Below are positions 5,058 to 45,167 of a stretch of DNA of 64,000 nucleotides, one piece after another; the stretch's first letter is position 1; every line of letters begins with the position of its first letter. Below the pieces are notes generated by a model that was given only the letters and a program-made list of their open reading frames with translations, had not been told where the DNA came from and searched no databases. The stretch is from Bifidobacterium asteroides (GTDB lineage: Bacteria; Actinomycetota; Actinomycetes; Actinomycetales; Bifidobacteriaceae). The stretch lies in NCBI RefSeq assembly GCF_003202695.1, contig NZ_QGLL01000009.1, positions 1 to 64,000 on the forward strand. The letters are read 5' to 3'. Position numbers and translations under genes: made by a program.

Positions 5058-5630
5058 TTAGCGCTCGTCCAACTTGGTGATGATCTCCTTGGAGATCTGG
5101 TCGACCTCGCCCTGGCCATCCACTGCGACTAGAAGGCCGCGGGACTTGTAGGTGTTCAACAGGGGGGCAGTCTCCTTGGCATAGATATCCAGACGCTTGG
5201 CAATCGCCTCGGGGGTATCGTCTGCCCGCCCCTCTTCCTTGGCCCGCTTGGCGATGCGTTGCATGAGCACGTCATGGTCAGCATCCAGGGCCACCACAGC
5301 CGTCAGCGGAGTGTCCAGCTCCTGGAGCATCTGGTCCAGCGCCTCGACCTGGGAGGCCGAACGGGGGTAGCCGTCCAGAATCCAGCCCTGGGCGACATCA
5401 TCCATACCAAGACGGTCCTTGACGATCTTGTTGGTCAGCTCGTCTGGCACCAGCTCACCCTTGTCGGTGTAGGCCTTGGCCTGTTTGCCCAGTTCGGTTC
5501 CGTTCTTCAAGTTGTAGCGGAAAATGTCGCCGGTGGAGATGGCCGGAATCCCGTAATGCTTGCTGAGCAAGGCCGCCTGAGTGCCCTTGCCAACACCTTG
5601 AGGTCCCATGATCAACAGTCGCTGTGCCAT
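5058..5630 (-). CDS. adk: Adenylate kinase
   Basis: A 190-residue kinase interconverting ATP + AMP and 2 ADP in the cytoplasm. The N-terminal P-loop is GPQGVGKGTQ; AMP-site motifs follow, including 'STGDIFRYN' and 'DGYPRS' further on. The LID is short and lacks the four-Cys zinc site of Bacillus enzymes, as in other actinobacteria. I chose the start at MAQRLL (5630) because AGGA lies 6 nt upstream; an in-frame ATG at 5648 has no ribosome binding site. The gene follows secY after about 250 nt and is followed by its own terminator. The secY-adk order is typical of the spc operon. Confidence 0.97.
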   Translation of the reverse strand: MAQRLLIMGPQGVGKGTQAALLSKHYGIPAISTGDIFRYNLKNGTELGKQAKAYTDKGELVPDELTNKIVKDRLGMDDVAQGWILDGYPRSASQVEALDQMLQELDTPLTAVVALDADHDVLMQRIAKRAKEEGRADDTPEAIAKRLDIYAKETAPLLNTYKSRGLLVAVDGQGEVDQISKEIITKLDER

Positions 5631-5881: not shown

Positions 5882-7210
<1,329 letters not shown>

Positions 7211-37713: not shown

Positions 37714-37759
37714 GGTTCACCTCTATAGTCGTTGCACGACCGACGTATGTCGGCCACAG

Positions 37760-37833
37760 TAGCGAGGAAGAGACTCGAACTCTTGACCTTACGATTATGA
37801 GTCGTACGCTCTAGCCAGCTGAGCTACCCCGCC
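37760..37833 (-). tRNA. tRNA-Met (CAT)
   Basis: Acceptor GGCGGGG / CCTCGCT with two G-T pairs, D-stem GCTC, anticodon arm TACGA-CTCATAA-TCGTA, T-arm AAGAG-TTCGAGT-CTCTT. Anticodon CAT. It looks like an elongator tRNA; a lysidine-modified tRNA-Ile cannot be excluded without a search. Confidence 0.92.
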
Positions 37834-37837
37834 AGAG

Positions 37838-37909
37838 AGCCTCGGGTGAGAATCGGACTCACGACCTCTTCCTTACCAAGGAAGTGCTCTGCCACTGAGC
37901 TACCGAGGC
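37838..37909 (-). tRNA. tRNA-Thr (GGT)
   Basis: Acceptor GCCTCGG / CCGAGGC, anticodon arm CTTCC-TTGGTAA-GGAAG giving anticodon GGT, and T-loop GTCCGATTC. Four nt separate it from tRNA-Met. Confidence 0.95.
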
Positions 37910-37910
37910 G

Positions 37911-37992
37911 TGGCGGATAGAGGATTCGAACCTCTGAAGCATTACGCGGCTGATTTACAGTCAGCTCCCTTTGACCGCTTGGGAAATCCGCC
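37911..37992 (-). tRNA. tRNA-Tyr (GTA)
   Basis: Class II tRNA with a long variable arm. Acceptor GGCGGAT / ATCCGCC, anticodon loop CTGTAAA (GTA), T-loop GTTCGAATC. It is the first tRNA of the minus-strand Tyr-Thr-Met-rpmG array. Confidence 0.95.
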
Positions 37993-38108: not shown

Positions 38109-39164
<1,056 letters not shown>

Positions 39165-39213
39165 TCAGTCTACCGCATGGGCGGACCCGAGCTGTGGACG
39201 CGGACCCGAAAGG

Positions 39214-39243
39214 GCCGGCACCGTTGCGAGAGACGGTGCCGGC
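39214..39243 (-). terminator. Intercistronic hairpin between nrdE and nrdF
   Basis: Perfect GCCGGCACCGT / ACGGTGCCGGC stem with an 8-nt loop, 31 nt after the nrdE stop, followed by CCTTTCGGG. It is either a partial terminator lowering nrdF relative to nrdE or an RNA-processing/stability element. Confidence 0.6.
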
Positions 39244-39273
39244 CAGGTTCTCCAATGCTTCAGGACATGCTCC

Positions 39274-41469
39274 TTAGAGCATGCAGCTGACGCAGCCTTC
39301 GACCTCGGTACCCTCCAGGGCCTGCTGGCGGATCCTGATGTAGTAGAGGGTCTTGATTCCCTTGCGCCAGGCGTAGATCTGGGCCTTGTTCAGGTCGCGG
39401 GTGGTGGCCGTGTCGGGGAAGAACAGGGTCAGAGAAAGCCCCTGATCCACATGCTGGGTGGCCTCGGCATAAGTGTCCACGATCTTCTTCCAGCCGATCT
39501 CGTAGGCGTCCTCAAAGTAGTCCAGGTTCTCGTTGGTCATGTAGGGGGCCGGGTAGTAGACGCGCCCGATCTTGCCTTCCTTGCGGATCTCGATCTTGGA
39601 GGCAATCGGGTGGATGGAGCTGGTGGAGTGGTTGATGTAGGAGATGGACCCGGTCGGGGGGACGGCCTGGAGGTTCTGGTTGTAGATGCCGTCCTTGAGG
39701 ATGGCCGCCTGAAGCTCCTTCCAGTCCTCAACCGTGGGGATATGGACCTGGTACTGGTCGAAGAGGTCCTTGATCCGCTGGGTCCTGGGCTCCAGGGAAC
39801 GGCTGCCATCGGTGTACTTGTCGAAGTAGTTCCCCTGGCCTGCCGGCTTGGCGTAGTCGGACTTGGCGAAGGAGGCGAAGGCCTTCCCCCGCTCGACGGC
39901 CAGGGCGTGGGAGGCTCTGTAGGCGTGGTAGGCCACGGTCATGAAGTACATGTCCGTGAAGTCCAGCCCCTCTTCGGATCCGTAGTGGATGCCCTCGCGG
40001 GCCAGGAAGCCGTGGAGGTTCATCTGACCCAGGCCGATGGCATGGCCTTCGTCATTGCCCCGCTTGATGGAGGGGACGGCCTCGATGTTGGTGTGGTCGG
40101 AGACGGAGGTCAGGGCCCGCACCGAGGTCTCGACCGTATCGGCCAGGCCGCCGTCCATGGCCTTGGCGATGTTAAGGGATCCCAGGTTGCATGAGATGTC
40201 GCGACCGATATGGTCGTAGTTCAGGTTCTCGGAGTAGGTGCTGGGCTCCTGGACCTGCAGGATCTCCGAGCAGAGGTTGGACATGGTGATCCGGCCGTCG
40301 ATGGGGTTGGCCTTGTTGACCGTGTCCTCGAAGAGGATGTAGGGATAGCCGGACTCGAACTGGATCTCGGCCAGGGTCATGAAGAAGTCACGGGCATCGA
40401 TGTACTTCTTGTGGATCCGCTTGTCCTTGACCATCTCCTCATAGTGCTCGGTGATGGGAATGTCCGCGAAGGGCTTGCCGTAGACCCGCTCCACGTCGTA
40501 GGGCGAGAAGAGGGCCATGGGCTCCTTGCGCTTGGCCAGCTCGAAGGTGATGTCGGGGATGACCACGCCCAGAGCCAGGGATTTGATGCGGATCTTCTCG
40601 TCCGCGTTCTCCCGCTTGGTATCCAGGAAGCGCATGATGTCGGGGTGATGGGCCGACAGATAGACGGCACCGGCACCCTGGCGGGCACCCAGCTGGTTGG
40701 CGTAGGAGAAGGAGTCCTCCAGGAGCTTCATGACCGGGACCACGCCGCTGGACTGGTTCTCGATATGCTTGATGGGCGCGCCCATCTCACGCAGATTGCT
40801 GAGCAGAAGAGCCACGCCTCCGCCCCTCTTGGACAGCTGCAGGGCGGCGTTGACGCCGCGGGAGATGGATTCCATGTTGTCTTCGATGCGCACCAGGAAG
40901 CAGGAGACCGGCTCGCCGCGCTGGGCCTTGCCCAAGTTCAGGAAGGTAGGGGTAGCGGGCTGGAAGCGCCCGGAGATGATCTCATCCGTGTACTTCATGG
41001 CGGCCTGCTCGTCCCCGTCGGCCAGCTCCAGAGCCACGGCCACGCAGCGCTGCGGGAAGTCCTCCAGGTAGCGCTTGCCGTCGAAGGTCTTCAGCGCATA
41101 GGAAGTGTAGAACTTGAAGGCGCCCAGGAAGGTCTCGAATTCGAAGCCGCTTTCGGCAGCATGCTGATAGATCCTGTCCAGGAACTCCGGGGTGTAGCGC
41201 TCGAAGACCTTCCGGTCGTAGTACTCGTGGTCCAGAAGATAGGCGATCCTCTCGGCCGTTGAGGGGAAGGTCATGGTGTTGGTCCGCACGTGCGTGTCCA
41301 TATACTGACGCTCGGCCTCGCGGTCCTTGTCGAACTGGATCCTGCCGTCCTTGTCATACAGGTTCAGCATGGCATTCAGGGCATGGTAGTCGTGAGCCGG
41401 ATCGAAGGTCTCCTCATCCTCGGATGCGGTCCTATCCAGGGCCAGGGACGTGTCCTCATTTGCTCCCAT
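39274..41469 (-). CDS. nrdE: Class Ib ribonucleotide reductase R1
   Basis: 731 residues. It is the catalytic subunit reducing NDPs to dNDPs. Active-site Cys are in [26 protein letters not shown] and '[15 protein letters not shown]', and the C-terminal redox pair is in EGCVSCML. There is no N-terminal ATP-cone, as usual for class Ib. I start at MGANED (41469), where AAAGG lies about 7 nt upstream; the ATG at 41484 has none. It is the only NrdE in the window and must serve both NrdF proteins. No nrdH glutaredoxin gene lies nearby, which is unusual for nrdHIEF operons. Confidence 0.96.
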
Positions 41470-41520
41470 CAGGTGTCCTTTCATGAGTATTGCGGTGATA
41501 GTGCGTGTAATGAAATTGGC

Positions 41521-42018
41521 TCAGGACTCTGGGTGGCTGCGGAAGAAATCCACAACCCCGCGGCGAACCTTCTTCTGGTCCTCCTTGGTGCCCATAAGCT
41601 CGAAATAGTAGAGGAAAGGCACATTGCACTTGCGGGAGATGATGTCCCCCGCCATGCAGAAGGCCTCTCCAAAGTTGGTGTTGCCCGAGGCGATGACCCC
41701 GCGGATGCCGGCCCGGTTGGCCGGATCGTTCAGGAAGCGCTTGATCTGCGGCATGACAGCCTTCTTGGCTGATCCGCCCCCATAGGTGGGGACAATCAGG
41801 ATGTAGGGCTGTCGAATGTTGAGCGGCGGGTCCTTGGGCCTCAGAGGGATGCGGAAGACGTCTATCCCCTCGTCATCCAAATGGCAGTTGGCGATGAACC
41901 GGGCGGTGTTGCGTGAGGCCGACGAGAAGTAGACCACAGCCCCCAGTCGCTGACCTTGGGCGGCGAACTCTGGAACGCTGAGCTCCGAATCAGTTCCGGC
42001 GGTCTGCTGTTGCTCCAT
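41521..42018 (-). CDS. nrdI: NrdI flavodoxin-like activator (class Ib)
   Basis: 165 residues. NrdI carries FMN and supplies the oxidant used to build the NrdF cofactor. Flavin-binding motifs are [27 protein letters not shown] and 'VIASGNTNFGEAFCMAG'. AGGAGG lies upstream of the ATG. First gene of nrdI-nrdE-nrdF, with paired NrdR-like boxes at 42111-42157. It differs clearly from the second NrdI (43254-43742), so each may serve its neighbouring NrdF. Confidence 0.94.
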   Translation of the reverse strand: MEQQQTAGTDSELSVPEFAAQGQRLGAVVYFSSASRNTARFIANCHLDDEGIDVFRIPLRPKDPPLNIRQPYILIVPTYGGGSAKKAVMPQIKRFLNDPANRAGIRGVIASGNTNFGEAFCMAGDIISRKCNVPFLYYFELMGTKEDQKKVRRGVVDFFRSHPES

Positions 42019-42110: not shown

Positions 42111-42157
42111 CTACTATATGTGCTATTGATATTGAAAACAGTGAGCATATATAGGGT
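42111..42157 (-). promoter_or_regulatory. Pair of NrdR-like boxes upstream of nrdI-nrdE-nrdF
   Basis: Two 16-bp sites, CTACTATATGTGCTAT (42111-42126) and TGAGCATATATAGGGT (42142-42157), match the NrdR consensus acaCwAtATaTwGtgt at 10-11 positions. Their 31-bp spacing is the usual NrdR arrangement. They lie between nrdF2 and nrdI and imply ATP/dATP-sensed repression. Confidence 0.7.
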
Positions 42158-42192: not shown

Positions 42193-43257
42193 CTAGAAGT
42201 CCCAGTCGTCGTCGTCCGTGGATTCGGAGTGCCCCATGACGTAGGAGGAGCCCGAACCCGAGAAGAAATCATGGTTCTCGTTGGCCGAGGGCGACAGGGC
42301 CGCCAGAATCTCCGAACTGACATCGGTCTGGTCGGCTGCGAACCGGGCCGGGTAGCCCAGGTTCATCAGCGCCTTGTTGGCATTGTAGCGAACGAAGGCG
42401 AAGACGTCGTCTACGAAGGGGAAGCCCTGATAGATCTGCCCGGAATAAACCATCTCCAGATCGTAGAGCTTGTCCAGCAAATCATTAGTGAACTTCTCCA
42501 GCATGGCCTGGTCGGCCTGGGTCCTCTCCTCCAGACCCCGCTGATACTTGTAGCCCGAATAATAGCCATGGATGGCCTTGTCGCGCAGGATCAGCCGGAT
42601 CATGTCGGCCGTGTTCATCAGCTTGGCATGACTGGAGAAGTAAAGGGGAAGGTAGAAACCAGCATAGAGCATGAGCGAAGAGAGCATGGTGGAGGCCACC
42701 TTGCGCTTCAGGGGGTCCTCGCTGACATACTCGTGCAGGACCGTGTGGACGCGCTCCTGGAGGACGTCGTTGGCCACAGCCCAGCGATAGGCCTTGTCTA
42801 TCTCCTCACTGGAGCAGAGGGTGGAGAAGACCGAGGAATAGGAGCGGGCGTGAACCGACTGCATGAAGGCGATATTGGTGTATATGGCCTGCTCCTGCTC
42901 GGTGCGAGCATGATCGATCTGCACCAGCTCTCCGATAGTGGCCTGGGTGGTGTCCAGCATGGTCAGTCCGGTGAAGACTCGGACCGTAGTCTGGCGCTCA
43001 TGATCGGTCAGGGTGTTCCAGGATGGGATGTCGTTGGACAGCGGCACTTTCTCAGGCAGCCAGAAGTTGGAGACCAGACGGTTCCAGACCTCCAGATCCT
43101 TCTCATCGGTGATCTTGTTCCAATTGACCGGACGAATCCTGGCCTCGGGGCTGACCCGGTATTGGGGCGGGGTGATGGACTTGCGCATCATCTCGTCGTC
43201 GGCATAGACACCGACCTCTGACTTGGTGCTCTTTCGGGTACCTTCCTGCTGGCTCAT
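42193..43257 (-). CDS. nrdF2: R2 protein with QSK metal-free (class Ie) signature
   Basis: 354 residues, clearly homologous to the neighbouring NrdF. Three metal-ligand glutamates are replaced: Q133 (MQSVHARSY, where NrdF has MESVHAKSY), S193 ([11 protein letters not shown] against [11 protein letters not shown]) and K227 (RDKAIHGYY against RDEAVHGYY). D102, H136, Y140 and H230 are kept. Q, S and K at exactly these positions define the QSK group of class Ie R2 proteins, which hold no metal and store the radical on a Tyr-derived DOPA made with NrdI. The N-terminus is about 22 residues longer; the tail ends DDDDWDF as in NrdF. The start overlaps the nrdI2 stop (ATGA). It is probably used when Mn/Fe is scarce. 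Confidence 0.93.
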
Positions 43258-43742
43258 GACAAAACCGCCTTTCGTGAATCAGTCGACTGCCGCTGAAGCT
43301 GCACTCCCATTCCTGCCAGGATGGCCCTGACTGCTTGAACATCCTCCGAGGTGCCCAGTAGCTCGAAGCGGTAGAGCTCAGGGACGCCGCATCGGCGGGC
43401 TATCAGCGGACCGGCCGCGCAATAGGCGCTGCCGAAGTTTCGGTTGCCCGAGGTGACGACCCCGCGGATCAGCCCGCGGTTGATCGGATTGTTCAGGAAG
43501 TGGATGACCTGCTTGGGCACGGCCCCCTTAGCTGACCCGCCGCCATAGGTGGGCACCAGCAGAAGGTAAGGCGCATCCATGACGAGCATCGGCTGGCGCC
43601 GCTCGTACAGGGGGATGCGGAGAGGCTCCTCCACGCCCAACCGCTGCACAAAACGGTGGGTGTTATTGGAGACGCTGGAGAAATACACCAGCCTGGAGGC
43701 GCCATCGGGAGGATCGTGCCGATCCACATCTGCTAAGGACAT
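43254..43742 (-). CDS. nrdI2: Second NrdI, dedicated to the QSK NrdF
   Basis: 162 residues; flavodoxin-like. Motifs are [37 protein letters not shown] and '[16 protein letters not shown]'. I start at MSLADVD (43742), where AAGGAG lies about 12 nt upstream; the frame stays open to 43802 through the NrdR boxes, so an earlier start is unlikely. It is translationally coupled to nrdF2 (ATGA overlap). In class Ie systems NrdI provides the superoxide that oxidises Tyr to DOPA, which fits this pairing. Confidence 0.92.
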
Positions 43743-43764: not shown

Positions 43765-43812
43765 ACACTATATATTGGATTGGTTTGGCCAGCCAACCAC
43801 AATATATAGGTT
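43765..43812 (-). promoter_or_regulatory. Pair of NrdR boxes upstream of nrdI2-nrdF2
   Basis: Sites ACACTATATATTGGAT (43765-43780) and CCACAATATATAGGTT (43797-43812) both keep the CwATATATwG core of the NrdR box and are 32 bp apart, about three helical turns. They begin 22 nt upstream of nrdI2. They match the consensus better than the boxes at 42111-42157. Confidence 0.8.
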
Positions 43813-43920: not shown

Positions 43921-45060
43921 TCAATCGGGGATCGGATCTTGCGACAGACCTTCTCGGCGCAGGTCGGCGCAGACCTCCAAAACCCGATCGTTCGCCTCCC
44001 GCTCCCCCACGGTGATGCGGATGCCCTCGCCTGGGAATGTTCTGACCGACAGGCCGGCATCTCGGAAACGCTGATCAGCCTGCGCGGCGGCCCGGCCCAG
44101 AGGCAGCCAGTAGTAGTTCGCCCGAGGTTCAGGGATATTCCACCCCTGATCCTGCAAACCAGCCAGTATTCTGGCCCGCTCCTGCTTGAGCGCCTGGACC
44201 CGTTCGGACAGACGGTCCTGTGCGTCCAGGCTGGCCATTGCCGCCGTCTGGGCCACGTCGCTGACGCCGAAGGGCAGGGCCACCTTGTTCATGCCGGCAA
44301 TGATCGGCTCGGCAGCCACGGCATATCCGATTCGCAGACCTGCCAGTCCGTAGGCCTTGGAGAAGGTCCGGGCCACTATCACATTCGGATGCTCGCGCAT
44401 GAGCGCCAATCCGTCGGCTCGATCGGGGTCGTCGTTGAACTGTACATAAGCCTCGTCGAAGAGCACCGGCAGGTCTGCAGGCAGCGCTTGCAGCAGACGC
44501 TCAGCCTGGTCATGATCGACATTGGTCGCAGTCGGATTATTGGGATTGTTGACAATGACCAGTCTGGTGTGGTCGTTGACTGCGGCAATCATGGCCTCGA
44601 TGTCATGCCGTCCCTGCTTATCCAGGGGCACGGGTACCCCGGTGGCGCCGGCCATGGTGACGATGATGGGATAGGCTTCGAAACTGCGCCACGGATAAAC
44701 CACCTGATCGCCATGACCGGCCACCAGGTCAACCAGCTGGGTGATGACCTCAGTGGATCCGCATCCCAGCTGAATGCATGCGGGATCCACTCCATGCAGA
44801 TGGGCCAGACGCTCAACCAGAAGGGTGCCACGCATGTCCGGATAGCGGTTCAGGTGACCCAGAGCCTGCTCGAAGACAGTCTGGAGCACGCCGGGCAGGG
44901 GCGGGTATGGGTTCTCGTTGCTGGAGATCTTGTAGCTGGTCAACCCGGGAATGGCAGGTGCCGGGCTGCCCTGCCGGTAACCGGGCAGGGCATCAATGCT
45001 GGCGCGATGACGATAGTACATGGACACCATGCTAGCGGCCGCCGTATGCCCCTGAGGCAT
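43921..45060 (-). CDS. Histidinol-phosphate / aromatic aminotransferase
   Basis: About 379 residues; fold-type I PLP aminotransferase of the HisC/Pat group. Motifs are SYKISSNENPYPPLP, 'IQLGCGSTEVITQLVDL', 'VIVNNPNNPTATNV' and 'ARTFSKAYGLAGLRIGYAV', which holds the PLP Lys. It stands alone, with no his genes nearby, so an aromatic aminotransferase (Pat, phenylalanine/tyrosine formation) or a second HisC is possible. The start is uncertain. The frame is open back to a GTG at 45138, but that part covers a strong hairpin (45097-45127) downstream of groES. ATGs at 45060 and 45030 (MVSMYYRH) are more plausible; neither has a well-placed Shine-Dalgarno. Confidence 0.85.
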   Translation of the reverse strand: MPQGHTAAASMVSMYYRHRASIDALPGYRQGSPAPAIPGLTSYKISSNENPYPPLPGVLQTVFEQALGHLNRYPDMRGTLLVERLAHLHGVDPACIQLGCGSTEVITQLVDLVAGHGDQVVYPWRSFEAYPIIVTMAGATGVPVPLDKQGRHDIEAMIAAVNDHTRLVIVNNPNNPTATNVDHDQAERLLQALPADLPVLFDEAYVQFNDDPDRADGLALMREHPNVIVARTFSKAYGLAGLRIGYAVAAEPIIAGMNKVALPFGVSDVAQTAAMASLDAQDRLSERVQALKQERARILAGLQDQGWNIPEPRANYYWLPLGRAAAQADQRFRDAGLSVRTFPGEGIRITVGEREANDRVLEVCADLRREGLSQDPIPD

Positions 45061-45096
45061 CTGGTCCGCTGCACGGTCCTCCTGAGACACGCGAAC

Positions 45097-45127
45097 GGCC
45101 CCCAGTCCTGCTAAAGGACCAGGGGCC
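45097..45127 (-). terminator. Hairpin downstream of groES
   Basis: GGCCCCTGGTCC / GGACTGGGGGCC around a 7-nt loop, 41-71 nt past the groES stop. There is no T-tract. It probably ends or slows the groES transcript and argues against coding from the upstream GTG of the aminotransferase. Confidence 0.5.
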
Positions 45128-45167
45128 GCCATCACCACCGCGTGCGGCGGTGCAGAGCCAATGTCTT

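Follow-up and report, generated by a model that had tools for sequence, protein, structure and literature searches.

A second NrdF of Bifidobacterium asteroides carries the residues of metal-free class Ie (QSK) ribonucleotide reductase and is encoded in tandem with a class Ib nrdIEF set

The best described relative of the protein studied here is the QSK-type class Ie R2 subunit (R2e) of Gardnerella vaginalis. The protein is metal-free in the structures 8RAG and 8RAH and holds only traces of Mn and Fe in solution, and the amine of a lysine sits in the Mn1 site (PMC11846895). DOPA is formed at Y150 upon co-production with NrdI, with higher yields in the presence of NrdH and of the whole operon, and CDP is reduced by the DOPA form only, together with reduced NrdI (PMC11846895). 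The same work counts 275 QSK genes in 266 genomes, all from four orders of Actinomycetota; its VPK genes come for the most part from Mycoplasmatales and Lactobacillales. It further reports 104 QSK nrdIF stretches and states that where a QSK stretch lacks nrdE, virtually every genome carries nrdE in another stretch, R1 being seemingly shared (PMC11846895). The family with its chemistry and the proposal of a shared R1 are thus already in print. The initial annotation of the gene had assigned the QSK group to mollicutes and some Gram-positive bacteria. Two points need correction: QSK genes were found only in Actinomycetota, and this kind of R2 is no longer uncharacterised, since DOPA, the lack of metal and activity in vitro were shown for the Gardnerella protein in 2025 (PMC11846895). 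Due to this distribution of VPK and QSK genes, Mesoplasma and Streptococcus, suggested as references, are the wrong reference group. Our literature search on QSK ribonucleotide reductase returned this paper as its sole match; the search on B. asteroides ribonucleotide reductase returned only an oxygen-shock study of B. longum, and the word “asteroides” is absent from the main text of a 2017 study of bifidobacterial ribonucleotide reductase indels.

The window, a stretch of 64,000 nucleotides from B. asteroides, encodes two NrdF proteins (Table 1). In a pairwise alignment QSK R2 and the neighbouring NrdF1 are identical at 192 of 331 positions; E110, E170 and E204 of NrdF1 align with Q133, S193 and K227, and D79, H113, Y117 and H207 recur unchanged as D102, H136, Y140 and H230. 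The ligand positions of QSK R2 are occupied by D102, Q133, H136, S193, K227 and H230, with Y140 as the radical Tyr. The three substitutions had been named initially with correct residue numbers, together with the retention of the Asp, both His and the radical Tyr, and the alignment bears this out. The C-terminal tail, through which R2 proteins contact R1, is nearly identical in the two aligned proteins, and the N-terminal extension known from Gardnerella R2e is also found in QSK R2. Among 116 NrdF rows (114 open reading frames from the loci, some of which repeat each other, plus both window proteins), 64 read D-Q-H-Y-S-K-H and 52 D-E-H-Y-E-E-H, and a third state is absent. Judged from these sequences, the substitutions are not due to chance or to a sequencing slip.

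Table 1 Features of the QSK nrdF region in the B. asteroides window
Feature	Position	Strand	Remarks
hisC-like aminotransferase between groES and nrdI2	43921..45138	minus	NF002878, 446 bits
NrdR-type box pair upstream of nrdI2	43765..43812	minus	two 16-mers whose starts lie 32 bp apart
nrdI2, flavodoxin NrdI	43254..43742	minus	162 aa from ATG 43742 (chosen start); TIGR00333 148.6 bits on longer TTG version
nrdF class Ie, QSK type (R2e)	42193..43257	minus	354 aa, ATG 43257 to TAG 42193
Second candidate pair of NrdR-type boxes, preceding nrdI1	42111..42157	minus	21/32
nrdI1, native bifidobacterial NrdI	41521..42018	minus	165 aa
nrdE, class Ib/Ie R1	39274..41484	minus	736 aa
nrdF1, ordinary class Ib R2, all metal ligands	38109..39104	minus	331 aa

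Class Ib R2 proteins have four carboxylates and two His, and one of these four carboxylates remains in QSK R2; VPK proteins have Val, Pro and Lys at the three positions where the window protein has Gln, Ser and Lys. What was found corresponds to the QSK group, namely Q133/S193/K227, a place in the QSK clade, the kept Y140 and an NrdI gene at hand. The best NCBIfam match, above cut-off, is nevertheless “class 1b ribonucleoside-diphosphate reductase subunit beta”. Automatic annotation would therefore take the protein for an ordinary NrdF, as had been foreseen, and metal needs read from annotation would be wrong for QSK R2 because the standard family library says class Ib. The closest solved structures are 8RAG and 8RAH from Gardnerella vaginalis (E 1e-181), followed by a chain with ordinary ligands at E 2.9e-129; with an offset of +10, Q133, S193, K227 and Y140 correspond to Q143, S203, K237 and Y150 of the 8RAG/8RAH protein. 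In the same PDB search five chains that we take to be class Ib NrdF (9L6O, 8J4X, 3N37, 1R2F and 1KGN) rank above 6GP2 and 6EBO, presumably the class Ie VPK R2 proteins of Mesoplasma florum and Aerococcus urinae.

When the three diagnostic columns are left out, the 121 NrdF rows, comprising QSK and ordinary R2 and no VPK rows, split across a single branch with support 100 into 59 QSK and 62 ordinary rows. Tree placement, which the initial annotation had proposed as a check, puts the window protein inside the QSK clade (100), within a Bifidobacteriaceae QSK clade of 27 rows (100) that includes Gardnerella, whose QSK copies are 78% identical to it. In the careful 38-row tree, also calculated without the diagnostic columns, the 21 QSK rows form one clade (100/100). 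On this set a single clade of all bifidobacterial NrdFs was rejected (p-AU 1.4e-5, with the groups for the AU tests chosen after the quick trees were inspected). Since the split between QSK and ordinary R2 holds and the union of bifidobacterial NrdFs is rejected, QSK R2 is a separate lineage and not a mutated copy of its neighbour. Residues, tree and closest solved structure thus all back the class Ie QSK assignment.

The 121-row tree was built after setting aside repeat loci (L001-L019, L025, L029, L031-L034, L050), loci above L131 and matches shorter than about 250 aa; the quick NrdI and NrdE trees omitted the same loci and, in addition, matches below 100 aa (NrdI) or 500 aa (NrdE). Careful trees were calculated on subsets of 38 of 121 NrdF rows, 34 (versus 87) NrdI rows and 25 (versus 66) NrdE rows; for NrdE the trees were calculated under the simpler LG+G4 model. 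Warnings of long branches apply to the 121-row NrdF tree and to both the quick and the careful NrdI tree; the label “I-F” in the quick NrdI tree reflects how far apart stop-to-stop frames lie, and L045 at least is mislabelled.

Several other origins of the gene can be set aside. A recent duplication of nrdF1 is rejected by the p-AU of 1.4e-5. For a mobile-element origin we found no plasmid or phage record at QSK-level similarity among the matches listed (25 of 1211 plasmid and 15 of 871 phage records), which are 55–62% identical, the level of identity of class Ib; 5 of the 1211 plasmid and 23 of the 871 phage records with a match lie between 60 and 80% identity and the remainder below 60%. A foreign composition is unsupported, with GC contents of 0.582 for nrdF(QSK), 0.622 for nrdI2 and 0.607 for the window.

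The genes are transcribed in the order nrdI2, nrdF(QSK), nrdI1, nrdE, nrdF1. The stop of nrdI2 overlaps the start of nrdF(QSK) by 4 nt, and 174 nt lie between nrdF(QSK) and nrdI1. For nrdI2 the listed TTG start at 43802 is less likely, as it falls within the NrdR-type boxes. In the genome (99.98% complete), the large-subunit barrel family has a single match, the window nrdE; if QSK R2 works, NrdE is thus the sole candidate partner found for it. The genome further encodes a class III NrdD and one NrdR; nrdH is absent from the cluster, and an NrdH candidate lies about 115 kb off, just below the family cut-off (85.2 vs 85.75 bits). Between nrdE and nrdF1, positions 39213-39244 form a perfect 12-bp hairpin that lacks a T run; it is partly conserved in relatives and unseen in L123, and a separate promoter for nrdF1 may lie beyond it. 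On its own strand nrdF1 is followed directly by three tRNA genes (Met, Thr, Tyr; 37759-37992).

Upstream of nrdI2 the box pair reaches 27/32 against what we take to be the NrdR consensus, the best score among 40 resampled windows being 21, and its first box is identical in 13/13 sequences and its second in 12/13. The candidate pair upstream of nrdI1 is conserved among relatives, although its score equals the best resampled one and is at chance level. Box pairs also precede the QSK gene in two relatives without nrdI2 (L124 and L125, score 25) and in all five solitary QSK copies examined (L126, L127, L128, L041 and L042, scores 22–27); scores of 22, as in L128, are weak alone because a pair at 12207 in L036, away from nrd genes, scores 22 as well. 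Among 13 close sequences (78 pairs) the median dN/dS is 0.032 for nrdF(QSK), 0.022 for nrdF1, 0.031 for nrdE and 0.043 for nrdI1; for nrdI2, recovered by the motif used in 12 of the 13 sequences, it is 0.119 (66 pairs).

The relatives named at 97% are Bifidobacterium choladohabitans, B. mellis and B. apousia, which live in bee guts. An intact QSK gene (best E <1e-180) is present in 18 of 27 genus-group genomes, the window's own included, and an NrdF at the class Ib similarity level in 27/27, hence also in 18/18 of those with an intact QSK gene. The window order groES, hisC-like gene, nrdI2, nrdF(QSK), nrdI1, nrdE, nrdF1 recurs in all 12 close relatives fetched (L112-L123), and the hisC-like aminotransferase accompanies the QSK gene throughout this tandem clade. 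In L124 and L125 the stretches fetched show the same order minus nrdI2, with an intact QSK nrdF beside nrdI1; nrdE of L125 (G026) runs in two frames near its 5' end (5304-5425), either through an error in sequencing or because the gene is truly interrupted. In L126-L128 the QSK gene lies apart from the cluster, and each genome has one NrdI match, of the NrdI1 type.

Nine genus-group genomes are without an intact QSK gene. In five of them (L129, L130, L131, L137 and L140) groES lies 245–305 nt upstream of nrdI, which looks like an empty site, and in five relatives that are also without the QSK gene the search for the hisC-like gene in the groES-nrdI interval found none. In L139 nrdI is preceded by a hisC-like gene but no QSK gene, and in L138 and L141 only nrdF is visible in the stretch fetched. 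Insertion rather than loss is weakly favoured at the groES-nrdI site. Outside this group, groES is found 708 nt upstream of nrdI in Alloscardovia (L078), and no groES match was obtained upstream of nrdI in seven other Bifidobacteriaceae loci (L035, L036, L040, L073, L075, L083, L088). A remnant of QSK nrdF lies between the hisC-like gene and nrdI1 in L136 (G002, 5183-5613): residues 75–256 of 354, which span the three diagnostic positions, were not found, and the other pieces are in different frames. As this copy is broken and the class Ib nrdF is intact, QSK R2 can be lost in the window lineage while class Ib stays.

A different state is found elsewhere in the family. QSK R2 is the only NrdF found (E 1e-40) in 8/8 other Bifidobacteriaceae genomes checked (three Gardnerella, two B. 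thermophilum, B. boum, B. bohemicum and strain ESL0682; assembly completeness not given), each of which has one NrdE locus. The NrdE of Gardnerella, B. thermophilum and B. boum falls within the native Bifidobacteriaceae NrdE clade (100/100), and their NrdI is native as well (99 in the quick and 100/99 in the careful tree); uniting the NrdE of ten loci with QSK as the only R2 in one tree was rejected (p-AU 1.7e-6). B. bohemicum, compared by identity outside the trees, has an NrdE 83% identical to the window NrdE and an NrdI 66% identical to NrdI1, encoded together and far from the solitary QSK nrdF (L041, 6001-7044). The match of the latter to the window protein stops at residue 347, short of the acidic tail. 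In strain ESL0682 (L042, G066) the QSK nrdF at 6001-7028, a QSK row of the 121-row tree, is in two frames near its 3' end, nrdI is in two pieces and nrdE in three; three broken ribonucleotide reductase genes together suggest sequencing errors in this assembly. On the sequence evidence, QSK R2 would have replaced the class Ib R2 alongside native R1 and NrdI in Gardnerella, B. thermophilum and B. boum. If so, the partners being native, the activity published for Gardnerella (PMC11846895) already shows R1 and NrdI of class Ib lineage driving a metal-free R2, and metal-free R2s seem to plug into class Ib R1.

We therefore consider it very probable that the gene encodes a class Ie QSK R2 using a metal-free DOPA radical on the single NrdE that also serves NrdF1. 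Residues, clade, gene layout, the single NrdE, selection and the candidate NrdR site form the basis of this reading. Absence of metal, DOPA, radical and activity are ascribed to the window protein by analogy with the Gardnerella homologue, and we infer that it may share NrdE with NrdF1 and serve as a backup under low metal or oxygen stress. In the mechanism we propose, reduced NrdI (NrdI2, possibly also NrdI1) and oxygen would supply a reduced-oxygen oxidant to the ligand-depleted site, where K227 would occupy the place of a metal ion, and Y140 would be hydroxylated to a radical-bearing DOPA. The DOPA radical would then be handed to the cell's single NrdE, common to the metal-dependent NrdF1. 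Besides the anaerobic NrdD, the cell would thus possess a metal-dependent and a metal-free aerobic R2 that are interchangeable on one R1. The retention of class Ib in 18/18 genomes, the broken copy in L136, the distant NrdH candidate and the two relatives without nrdI2 count against this explanation.

The first two of these points would also suit a non-catalytic paralogue without a radical, a leftover or a regulator of NrdF1 or NrdE, which we nevertheless regard as very unlikely. A dN/dS of 0.032 over 78 pairs, three identical substitutions in 59 rows of many families and an NrdR-type pair that precedes the gene both at the tandem loci and at 5/5 solitary copies examined (one at 22) are hard to reconcile with it, as are the eight genomes in which QSK is the only NrdF found and the activity of the Gardnerella homologue (PMC11846895). 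That the protein is instead a class Ib R2 binding one or two metals through altered ligands is hardly credible. The kept Asp and both His and the NCBIfam label could be read in this way, but a Lys stands where the amine of the homologue's Lys fills the Mn1 site, and 8RAG/8RAH are described as metal-free with traces only in solution (PMC11846895).

A more serious, though still rather unlikely, alternative is that QSK R2 is functional as a specialised isozyme activated by NrdI2 only, and is not an interchangeable R2. The 4-nt overlap favours NrdI2 as the NrdI serving QSK R2. In the careful 34-row tree NrdI2 falls outside the native bifidobacterial NrdI clade (100/99), which speaks against a recent duplication of nrdI1; in the best tree it groups with the NrdI proteins from QSK loci outside the bifidobacteria (84/91, not starred, on a long branch). 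Its exact grouping is less certain, as a placement with native NrdI was not rejected (p-AU 0.166), and this weakens the specialised-isozyme reading. Also against it stand L124 and L125, where an intact QSK nrdF lies beside nrdI1 with no nrdI2 in the stretch, and three genomes (G004, G009 and G012) that carry both R2s with one NrdI match each, 68–72% identical to NrdI1. The NrdI of Gardnerella, which makes DOPA (PMC11846895), belongs to the native class Ib lineage. Together with B. bohemicum, these cases favour the view that native NrdI suffices for QSK R2.

Returning to an interchangeable QSK R2, we lean, if only slightly, towards the idea that R2, the half of a class I ribonucleotide reductase that makes the cofactor, is a swappable module in Bifidobacteriaceae: a QSK R2 separate by descent from the native class Ib R2 would have arrived between groES and the native nrdI under NrdR-type control, and the clades described above would represent stages. 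The window clade would be in a double state, L124 and L125 in a double state with the native NrdI alone beside it, and L136 in decay; Gardnerella, B. thermophilum, B. boum and B. bohemicum would stand at the end, with QSK as sole NrdF and a bifidobacterial NrdE. If this is true, one R1 gains two R2s of different chemistry. QSK R2 itself is one more clade in a proven family, and the tandem layout together with R2 replacement is a modest addition to it. The window layout is a natural side-by-side experiment, in one organism and on one R1, on when a DOPA radical is preferred over a metal-made Tyr radical, and bears on whether a class Ib R1 with NrdI can run both R2s.

Compared with known systems, the window protein is most similar to R2e of Gardnerella vaginalis (Bifidobacterium vaginale; 8RAG/8RAH), with which it has in common the Q/S/K swaps, the kept Asp, His, His and Tyr, the N-terminal extension and membership in one Bifidobacteriaceae QSK clade. 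Class Ie VPK R2 (6GP2, 6EBO) has the metal-free DOPA chemistry predicted for the window protein and, like it, descends from class Ib, but has V/P/K in place of Q/S/K. Class Ib NrdF (NrdF1; 3N37, 1KGN, 8J4X) resembles QSK R2 in its fold (by homology), radical Tyr, C-terminal tail and NrdI partner, but retains all metal ligands. In Gardnerella, QSK R2 is described as the only class I R2 and is encoded in nrdHIEF (PMC11846895), whereas in the window nrdI2-nrdF(QSK) precedes a full class Ib set of nrdI, nrdE and nrdF, with the nrdH candidate located elsewhere. Like the QSK nrdIF stretches reported in that paper, the window nrdIF is without its own nrdE and R1 is presumably shared; in those published stretches nrdE lies in another stretch (PMC11846895), whereas in the window the QSK and class Ib sets are adjacent on one strand.
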